From a virus, in IMG/VR virus record IMGVR_UViG_3300006916_010552, positions 1 to 29,642 of that record: DNA of 29,642 nt; one strand, 5' to 3'. Below, piece by piece: positions 6,103-14,931 of the stretch. The number at the start of each line of letters is the position of its first letter. Within the stretch, counting starts at the first letter, position 1. The notes beneath the pieces were generated by a model, which worked only from the letters and a program-made list of their open reading frames with translations, did no database searches and had not been told where the DNA came from. Both the position numbers and the translations under genes were made by a program.

Positions 6103-6319
6103 ACTAGAACAACTTAGATCAGACTTTCTTCGACATGAAGCAGTTTGCGAAGAAAGGTGGAAGACAGTATTTAATGAAATTCGAGATGCAAAAGAGCAAG
6201 GAAATAATCGCTGGGCGGAAGTGAGATCTTCATTTGAAAGCGCACAAAGAATGCTTTTTGGCGGCTCAGGAGCTTTAATATTGTTTTTATTAGCTATAAT
6301 TTTTGGAGATTTATTATGA
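6092..6319 (+). CDS. 75-aa coiled-coil protein with C-terminal membrane anchor
   Basis: The first 50 residues are charged and helical (ENELEQLRSDF to WAEVRSSFESA) and the last 20 are a hydrophobic span (GALILFLLAIIFGDLL). This layout is like haemolysin XhlA-type or other phage lysis-associated membrane proteins, but also like many small anchored phage proteins. It overlaps the small terminase gene by 11 bases and the next gene by 4 bases (ATGA). GGAG lies inside the terminase end and can serve as ribosome binding site. A role in lysis is possible, but the clear lysis genes are at 13225-13997, so I leave the function open. Confidence 0.6.
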   Translation: MENELEQLRSDFLRHEAVCEERWKTVFNEIRDAKEQGNNRWAEVRSSFESAQRMLFGGSGALILFLLAIIFGDLL

Positions 6320-6606
6320 CAGTAGTTTATAAACAACGACGAGGAAAATTTTATAAAGTCGAAGATGGTGTAAAAACTTCTATTTCAGAAGAGGAGTGGC
6401 TCAAAGCTAATGGGCTGCTAGAGGATGAAGATGCCGGGACATTACAAGAAGAAGCCGAAGAAGAAAAAGCCTATGAAGCGCCGACAAAAGAAAAGCGGTC
6501 GCTGTTAAAAAAACAGACTCGAGAAAAATTAGAGTCAGGAGAGGCAGACTGGGAAAACCTAACTAAAGAAGAATGGGACTCCTTAGACTTGCCAGTTGCG
6601 GATTAA
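6316..6606 (+). CDS. Acidic hypothetical protein (96 aa)
   Basis: The family is not recognised. The N terminus (VVYKQRRGKFYKVEDG) looks like a short beta-rich domain, followed by a long stretch rich in Glu and Lys (about residues 34-85) that is probably disordered or helical, and an acidic end (WDSLDLPVAD). No signal peptide or membrane segment is present. It starts in an ATGA overlap with the anchored protein and so is likely translated with it. Its charge is opposite to that of the two very basic proteins just downstream, and a protein partnership with them is conceivable but not shown. Confidence 0.55.
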   Translation: MTVVYKQRRGKFYKVEDGVKTSISEEEWLKANGLLEDEDAGTLQEEAEEEKAYEAPTKEKRSLLKKQTREKLESGEADWENLTKEEWDSLDLPVAD

Positions 6607-6610
6607 GATT

Positions 6611-6748
6611 ATGTTACCTGAAAATGAAGAATTAGAGAATCCTTATTGCTATTCATGCAACTGTGCATGTCATTGCGAAAGTGGTCCCCACTCTTGTAGT
6701 GGCAAAGCAGAAAGTCATTCATGCGAATGTGTTTTCGTAGCTCCATAG
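6611..6748 (+). CDS. 45-aa cysteine-rich, metallothionein-like peptide
   Basis: The frame starts MLPENEELEN and then carries eight cysteines and three histidines in 28 residues: Cys13, 16, 18, 20, 22, 29, 38 and 40, in the order C-x2-C-x-C-x-C-x-C, then a lone Cys and a final C-x-C. Dense C-x-C spacing of this kind is typical of metallothioneins and other small metal-binding peptides. The gene follows the preceding stop by 4 bases and has only a weak ribosome binding site (TAAG), so expression probably depends on coupling. No signal peptide is present, so a cytoplasmic metal-binding role is inferred. It is too short for routine gene finding. A chance frame is possible, but eight clustered cysteines argue against it. 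Confidence 0.5.
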   Translation: MLPENEELENPYCYSCNCACHCESGPHSCSGKAESHSCECVFVAP

Positions 6749-6817: not shown

Positions 6818-6976
6818 ATGAGAAAAGGGCTGTACTACAATATAAACAGAAGGAAGAAAAAAGGAATAAGTAGATCCAAGAAAAAATCTACGATCTCAGC
6901 TAAAGCCTACGCAAATATGCGAGCGGGCTTTAAGAAAGGAAAGAAACGTGGCAGCAAGAAAAAGAAGCGTTCGTAA
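6818..6976 (+). CDS. 52-aa highly basic protein
   Basis: The protein starts MRKGLYYNIN and is more than one third Lys and Arg, ending in RGSKKKKRS. AGAGG lies 8 bases upstream of the ATG. It overlaps the next gene by 29 bases in another frame, and both frames encode basic residues across the overlap. With its charge it should bind DNA, RNA or an acidic partner. Position among late genes suggests a minor head component or DNA-condensing peptide; this is inferred. The family is not recognised. Confidence 0.55.
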   Translation: MRKGLYYNINRRKKKGISRSKKKSTISAKAYANMRAGFKKGKKRGSKKKKRS

Positions 6977-7253
6977 AAAGCATCCTGCTCTGAAACGTGC
7001 AGGGGTTTCTGGTTTTAACAAACCAAAGCGTACTCCAAAGCATCCGAAAAAATCTCATGTTGTTGTCGCAAAAGTAGGTAGCAAAGTTAAAACTATTCGT
7101 TTTGGACAGCAAGGCGTAAAAGGTTCTCCCAAGAAAAAAGGAGAATCTGCGTCTTATGCTGCTCGTCGCCGTTCGTTCAAGGCAAGACACGCTGCAAATA
7201 TTAAAAAAGGAAAGATGTCAGCAGCCTATTGGGCTGATAAGGTGAAATGGTGA
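6948..7253 (+). CDS. Basic late protein with KSFKARH...AAYWA motif (101 aa)
   Basis: The GTG start has AGGAAAG 5 bases upstream. The protein is strongly basic, with a C-terminal block VKTIRFGQQGVKGSPKKKGE, then RRRSFKARHAANIKKGKMSA and AAYWADKVKW. I recall closely similar C-terminal blocks in many marine phage proteins and in a DUF5872-like family of large DNA viruses, where cysteines replace some of these positions; the function is not known. Its small size, charge and late position suggest an internal head or DNA-associated role. It overlaps its basic neighbour upstream (29 bases) and the next virion-type gene (7 bases). Confidence 0.6.
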   Translation: MAARKRSVRKKHPALKRAGVSGFNKPKRTPKHPKKSHVVVAKVGSKVKTIRFGQQGVKGSPKKKGESASYAARRRSFKARHAANIKKGKMSAAYWADKVKW

Positions 7254-13997: not shown

Positions 13998-14371
13998 GCT
14001 ATTCAGAACAAGTTCTCGATCATTATAATAATCCTCGTAATGTCGGAAAACTAAACAAAGAGGATGAAGATGTTGGCACAGGCATGGTGGGAGCTCCTGC
14101 GTGTGGTGATGTAATGCAATTACAAATAAAGGTAAATGATAATGGAATTATCGAAGATGCTAGGTTTAAAACCTACGGATGCGGAAGTGCTATTGCTTCT
14201 TCCTCCCTCCTTACCGAATGGGTTAAAGGTCGTAGTCTTGACGAAGCTGGGAGTATTAAAAACACCGACATCGCCGAGGAACTCGCCCTCCCGCCCGTCA
14301 AAATCCACTGTAGTGTGCTTGCAGAAGATGCGATTAAAGCTGCGATCGAAGACTACAGGAGCAAACATTGA
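13994..14371 (+). CDS. iscU: IscU iron-sulfur cluster scaffold protein
   Basis: IscU assembles iron-sulfur clusters with cysteine desulfurase IscS and passes them on with HscA/HscB. All functional residues sit at the positions of Escherichia coli IscU: Cys37 and Asp39 in APACGDV, Cys63 in YGCGSAIASSS, the HscA-binding motif LPPVK at 99-103, and His105-Cys106. At 125 residues it is full length, so it is probably active with host IscS, none of the other isc genes being present. It starts in an ATGA overlap with the hydrolase and ends in a TTGA overlap with an oxygenase. The middle (about 14200-14330) is richer in GC than its neighbours, a possible sign of transfer. It is a clear auxiliary metabolic gene. 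Confidence 0.95.
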   Translation: MSYSEQVLDHYNNPRNVGKLNKEDEDVGTGMVGAPACGDVMQLQIKVNDNGIIEDARFKTYGCGSAIASSSLLTEWVKGRSLDEAGSIKNTDIAEELALPPVKIHCSVLAEDAIKAAIEDYRSKH

Positions 14372-14931
14372 TCCCTTATAAAGTATACGATAACTTTTTT
14401 TCACAAGAAGAACTAACATCAGTATGGCAAGAATTTGATAAAAATGTTTTATCAAAAGTAACTACTGACACAGGTACTGCAACTCACGAGGGACAGCCTT
14501 TAAAAGATAACTGGGGTTGCTGGCTTGGACATGTTTTTCCTGATAATAGTACTAAAATTCCTCAATCCCCCTATACTAATATTATAGAAAATATCGAAGC
14601 AGAGGAGGAATGGTTCTGGAGATATTTTTTAAAAACCAAGGCAAGTGCTTTATTATCTTATTACGGTGATGGGGACTCTTATGGAAAGCATTTTGATCAA
14701 ACCCTAATAACTTGTTTAACTTGGTTAAATATTTACCCAGAGAAAACTTTTACAGGAGGAGATCTTATTCTGGAGGGCGGAAAAGACATCGTAGAGTACA
14801 AACATAATAGAACTGTTATTTTCCCCTCTATGATGTTTCATGAAGTGACTCCCGTGAAACTTCTAGACCCAGAGAAAGAATACTCAGGAAGATTTTGCTT
14901 AACTTTATTTTTTATGCAGGACGAAACATGA
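14368..14931 (+). CDS. Prolyl-4-hydroxylase-like 2OG-Fe(II) oxygenase
   Basis: The iron ligands are His108-x-Asp110 (GKHFDQ) and His158 (MMFHEV), and Arg175 (SGRFCLTLFF) is the likely 2-oxoglutarate anchor. The core runs LSYYGDGDSYGKHFD, LTWLNIYP, FTGGDLILEGG and TVIFPSMMFHEV, the standard layout of the P4H-type oxygenase fold. The start is TTG in a four-base TTGA overlap with iscU, with AGGAG 8 bases upstream. The gene overlaps the large terminase start (ATGA). Its close coupling with iscU suggests a shared iron theme, though these enzymes use mononuclear iron and not clusters. The substrate is unknown. Confidence 0.82.
   Translation: MIPYKVYDNFFSQEELTSVWQEFDKNVLSKVTTDTGTATHEGQPLKDNWGCWLGHVFPDNSTKIPQSPYTNIIENIEAEEEWFWRYFLKTKASALLSYYGDGDSYGKHFDQTLITCLTWLNIYPEKTFTGGDLILEGGKDIVEYKHNRTVIFPSMMFHEVTPVKLLDPEKEYSGRFCLTLFFMQDET

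Follow-up and report, generated by a model that had tools for sequence, protein, structure and literature searches.

The window, that is the whole stretch of DNA that was analysed, has a length of 29,642 nucleotides and represents a 29.6-kb IMG/VR virus record classed as linear. Among known large terminases, those of large phages of Vibrio and enterobacteria come closest to the one encoded here (approximately 50%), and the genes described belong to an uncultured phage that is probably marine. The same phage encodes a homolog of polyphosphate kinase 2 (PPK2) on the minus strand (369-992; E ~1e-41). A same-strand row of genes, which includes the small terminase subunit, contains a function-unassigned acidic protein of 96 amino acids (6316..6606, plus strand), a short cysteine- and histidine-rich frame (6611..6748, plus strand), a basic protein of 52 amino acids assigned to phrog_25774 (6818..6976, plus strand), and a basic protein of 101 amino acids assigned to phrog_7595, a group frequent in marine phages (6948..7253, plus strand). 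The three genes flanking the short frame were used as syntenic anchors. The ATG at 6611 lies four bases past the stop of the 96-amino-acid protein, in agreement with the tight fit behind the previous gene described in the first-pass annotation, and 69 bases separate the frame from the next start at 6818.

When translated, 6611-6748 yields a peptide of 45 amino acids, MLPENEELENPYCYSCNCACHCESGPHSCSGKAESHSCECVFVAP, followed by a stop. It contains eight cysteines (positions 13, 16, 18, 20, 22, 29, 38, and 40; approximately 18% of the residues), arranged in the pattern C-x2-C-x-C-x-C-H-C-x6-C-x8-C-x-C, and three histidines (21, 27, and 36); the length, the cysteine positions, and the histidine count are exactly those reported previously. 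When the window was replaced by 60 first-order Markov copies, open reading frames of 35-60 amino acids with at least eight cysteines occurred 0.05 times per window, whereas the real window contains one, which is 6611-6748. The mechanical start of the frame is an in-frame TTG at 6596, and the stretch before the ATG (6596..6610, plus strand) carries a weak ribosome-binding signal, GCGGATTAAGATT. Since the ATG of the ortholog described below follows a clear ribosome-binding site, TAGGAGAAATAT, the ATG at 6611 was preferred. An antisense open reading frame of equal length lies opposite 6611-6748. The N-terminus of the peptide is acidic and a signal peptide is not apparent from the sequence itself, which favours a use of the cysteines in metal binding over a use in disulfides. 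The AlphaFold2 model, calculated without metal, is of low confidence (pLDDT 52, pTM 0.21); such a metal-free fold would be compatible with a metal-organised peptide and was not counted as evidence.

The first-pass annotation had proposed to search viral sequences for the cysteine pattern and to determine the mode of selection in relatives, and had named a loss of the cysteines in relatives as an argument against the peptide. An IMG/VR scan for the DNA pattern of YCxxCxCxCHC yielded a diverged ortholog (L257:276-395) as well as a set of 10-cysteine peptides. The ortholog, MTEEENPYCYDCDCSCHCDDSSHSCDMETHSCRCVFVAP, has 39 amino acids and an identity of 67% to the window peptide, and the gene order of SLDLPVAD-ending protein (the one of 96 amino acids in the window), peptide, phrog_25774 protein, and phrog_7595 protein is common to both records. 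All eight cysteines and three histidines are invariant and form the conserved core, and variation in both sequence and length is found in the spacers: L257 has two residues fewer ahead of the last HSC, with the frame intact across this in-frame indel. At four of the eight cysteines the codons are not the same in the window and L257, each time through a synonymous TGC/TGT exchange, and the aromatic residues Y12, Y14, and F42 are kept. In total, 17 synonymous changes on approximately 19.5 sites and 24 non-synonymous changes on approximately 91.5 sites were found (pS 0.88, which is near saturation, versus pN 0.26; Fisher p ~4e-7). Judged from this comparison, 6611-6748 is a real protein-coding phage gene under strong purifying selection, and this selection keeps residues of the metal-ligand type; the loss of cysteines that would have spoken against the peptide was not observed.

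A profile built from the window and L257 copies matched in three records (G000, G001, and G002). Among the matches listed there were two distinct versions of the 8-cysteine peptide and one identical copy; the latter, in IMGVR_UViG_3300025810_000177, comes from the phage of the window itself, with a DNA identity of 99.35% across 6.9 kb, and is uninformative on selection. Among 102 candidate stretches, of which one was confirmed, no ortholog was found beyond the near-identical phage, although the strict confirmation step also missed L257, so that absence there is not proof. Records 75% related in the downstream phrog_8198 protein lacked the peptide, as did L178, which has a matching order of terminase-small, membrane, and acidic genes; positions 1-400 of L178 resemble sequencing-adapter DNA read as coding (VCLCFFFSSRRRHTRYWRDWSSDVCSSD) and are probably an assembly contaminant. 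A tblastn search of cultured phages matched neither the 8-cysteine nor the 10-cysteine peptides, with the qualification that the low-complexity filter may mask such sequences. As far as the scans of the listed matches reach, the gene of the 8-cysteine peptide is thus accessory and restricted to a narrow group. Candidates from a scan for the spacing of all eight cysteines and from a scan of bacterial genomes were rejected, being mostly repetitive or out-of-context cysteine-rich frames among the matches listed. Directly 5' of the phrog_25774 gene, several records (L091, L094, L109, L119, L155, and others) encode a 6-cysteine zinc-finger-like protein (CGYCKEC...YFCHDGKDGSCFDNYC). This protein, which occurs in the pelagiphage HTVC010P and its relatives, shares with the window peptide the position relative to the following phrog_25774 gene, but differs in its cysteine pattern, is longer, and has no sequence similarity by inspection; it was rejected as a positional ortholog because of the pattern and length. 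In the AGE60314/AGE60315 region of HTVC010P (L083), the open frame extends upstream of the annotated 47-amino-acid gene, and the annotation may be too short.

The 10-cysteine peptides (alignment A2; for example MSGSPERYCNKCKCRCHCYSPECPNCSNDVCYTCECKEED in L188) follow the pattern YCxxCxCxCHC-x4-CxxC-x4-CxxCxC and were found in at least 22 distinct DNA versions in viral contigs. Their cysteines are conserved and they evolve under purifying selection (pS 0.74 versus pN 0.19). The family is without annotation in L188, L189, L217, L218, L224, L245, L250, and other records, is absent from Pfam, and has no significant match in PHROGs; an AlphaFold model of one member reached a pLDDT of 63 and, like that of the window peptide, was too poor to inform on the fold. 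Several of the genes, which have good ribosome-binding sites, lie in T4-like phages between genes for an Hsp20 and a lysozyme-like protein, an A-type Fe-S carrier and DNA polymerase, names that were read from the sequence, with the A-type carrier alone confirmed by a profile. Like the window peptide, the 10-cysteine peptides start with YCxxCxCxCHC, end with a CxC, are of similar length, are under purifying selection, and occur in phages with Fe-S carriers, but they have ten cysteines, with two additional pairs of the CxxC type. The profile of A2 had no match in G000 or G002 and did not detect the window peptide, and a profile-profile comparison (hhalign) of A2 with the 8-cysteine peptide aligned only 16 columns around the searched motif. 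Membership of both in one family was therefore rejected, the likeness in the motif being a product of how the search was constructed; the two would be similar in kind, with homology not established.

The first-pass annotation had suggested that the peptide could supply the metal-dependent proteins of this phage, and the window does encode proteins in line with this. An IscU/NifU_N Fe-S scaffold (PF01592; 13994..14371, plus strand; E 6e-54) would be a possible partner of the peptide, and a 2OG-Fe(II) oxygenase gene (14368-14931) follows directly after it. A protein with a CxxCxxCC putative Zn/Fe-chelating domain (PF03692; 3254..3700, minus strand), which contains 11 cysteines and, of nine records searched, was found only in the window and in G001, a nearly identical record, is a further possible metal-related partner. 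IscU is also present in L257, G005, and G008. In addition to IscU, L257 encodes an A-type Fe-S carrier (PF01521; L257:3476-3808; E 3e-24), and no such carrier was found in the window; since the L257 gene is inserted between two genes whose window counterparts are direct neighbours, the carrier is missing at that spot in the window phage. Among the matches listed, many of them shorter than 10 kb, 22 of the 41 records with either peptide contained an A-type carrier, compared to none of 47 control phage records (Fisher p ~8e-10), and the enrichment persisted when only records of at least 15 kb were considered (6/11; p ~1e-5). The carrier was also absent from all seven named phage records, four of which are cultured or named T4-like marine phages that lack the peptide as well. 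These comparisons are confounded: the control records had been selected on account of other genes and are unmatched for lineage, and most of the association stems from the 10-cysteine family, which was retrieved by its CxxCxCxCHC core, is of unproven homology to the window peptide, and occurs mostly in related T4-like phages that are hence not independent. With this reservation, the sole association found for the peptides is with Fe-S cluster assembly genes and not with Zn, Cd, or Cu resistance. It speaks, if only modestly, more for a role in metal handling than for a structural one, and the window peptide is a candidate companion of phage Fe-S assembly genes.

From the density of ligands, the CxC spacing, the conserved histidines beside cysteines, and the lack of an apparent signal peptide, we infer a metal-thiolate peptide, and we consider it reasonably likely that 6611-6748 encodes a small cytosolic buffer or chaperone of this kind, which may serve Fe-S assembly. 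Through their thiolates, and probably histidines too, the CxxCxCxCHC core and the terminal HSCxC would bind two to three soft metal ions, most likely Zn(II), with Cu(I) or Fe as possible alternatives, and the peptide, produced in the course of infection, would behave like a metallothionein that buffers or donates metal in labile form. Against this reading count the small number of distinct versions, the lack of the peptide in fairly close relatives, the failure of the metallothionein profile to match, and, for the Fe-S link, the lack of an A-type carrier in the window. That the frame is instead a chance, untranslated open reading frame is hardly credible: the weak ribosome-binding site at 6611 and the antisense frame would fit this explanation, but the L257 ortholog keeps the ligands and is preceded by a strong ribosome-binding site, the frame survived the indel, and the excess of synonymous changes between the two copies already contradicts it.

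A clearly less probable alternative, yet one of some weight, is a structural zinc knuckle or mini zinc finger, in which one or two zinc ions are held tightly for folding only, with no metal buffering, and the folded surface binds either nucleic acid or a protein of the host or the phage, such as the host RNA polymerase or a packaging regulator. Two tetrahedral sites can be formed by eight cysteines and three histidines, zinc-binding regulators of such a size are common in phages, and the gene lies in a late/structural cluster, next to genes for the small terminase subunit and for two small proteins of very basic character, at the place where pelagiphage relatives of the next gene have the unrelated zinc-finger-like protein (CGYC..C..CHDGK.GSCF..YC). 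Against this stand the unusual density of the CxCxCxCHC core, as mononuclear zinc fingers usually employ CxxC pairs, the scant non-cysteine sequence left for a binding surface, and the failure of zinc-finger profiles to match the peptide; a labile buffer and a fixed structural zinc peptide would look alike at the sequence level, which cannot tell them apart. In the structural region, the gene could also encode a virion component with disulfide-bonded cysteines, or the peptide could be a thiol redox or antioxidant agent with incidental metal binding, considering that metallothioneins scavenge reactive species as well (PMC7387436). This is rather unlikely, as the conserved histidines beside cysteines (CHC, HSC, HSC) suggest metal ligands, a signal peptide is lacking, and CxC spacing would be odd for disulfides.

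Within the preferred reading of a metal-thiolate buffer or chaperone, a more speculative step is that the peptide accompanies the phage-encoded Fe-S assembly proteins (IscU, A-type carrier), either by shielding this thiol-rich machinery from mismetallation with Zn or Cu, or by passing metal or thiols to it. Extended to both kinds of peptide, the idea would be that at least two unrelated marine phage groups carry CxxCxCxCHC metal-thiolate peptides as companions of Fe-S assembly, that is, a metallothionein-like peptide that buffers or donates metal specifically for Fe-S biogenesis in infection; this generalisation is doubtful at present, and we know of no such role ascribed to metallothioneins so far. 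If true, short metal-thiolate peptides under selection would add a new class to the auxiliary genes of phages, and one easily missed, as such genes may be skipped in gene calling and by the low-complexity filters of BLAST. To our knowledge, little is known of metal handling by phages beyond Fe-S carriers and tail metal sites, and the co-occurrence with Fe-S assembly genes offers a directly testable idea on why phages need metal buffering.

The description as metallothionein-like, already given in the first-pass annotation, holds in part. The peptide is a coding gene product with conserved cysteines and histidines, as a metal-thiolate peptide requires, and it agrees with the broad description of metallothioneins in being short, cysteine-rich (8/45), equipped with CxC and CxxC motifs, and conserved in an ortholog. 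Classical metallothioneins have no or rare aromatic residues, and with its three aromatic residues the peptide departs from a strict absence. It matched nothing in Pfam, PHROGs, or NCBIfam, and a sequence search of the PDB returned only a match at E 0.22, due to chance, with an 'insect toxin 2' chain. At E<=10, the profile of bacterial metallothioneins, PF02069 (Metallothio_Pro), had no match anywhere in the window; it matched in four of 14 control genomes, including Synechococcus elongatus. Membership in the bacterial metallothionein family is therefore not supported, and metallothionein is plausible as a way of working. The wording phage or viral metallothionein was not found in the open-access papers searched, and earlier work may exist elsewhere.

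With the bacterial SmtA/BmtA metallothioneins (PF02069) the peptide shares the small size, a presumably cytosolic location, CxC repeats, and histidines as candidate ligands. These proteins have 9-10 cysteines in a spacing unlike that of the window peptide, which has eight cysteines and three histidines, and a central zinc-finger-like YYCS..CA..H segment that the window peptide is without. No gene for an SmtB/ArsR-like repressor was seen among the part of the window genes that was read or scanned, the record being a fragment; Pseudomonas metallothioneins likewise have no linked regulator of the SmtB/ArsR type (PMC7387436). Phage-borne A-type carriers and IscU have been described in viral genomes of marine origin (Nishimura et al., 2017; PMC5332604), in a report whose main text contains no metallothionein, cysteine, zinc, or metal-binding terms, and it is with these phage-borne Fe-S assembly genes that the peptide shares its marine phage context and the presence of IscU and/or an A-type carrier.
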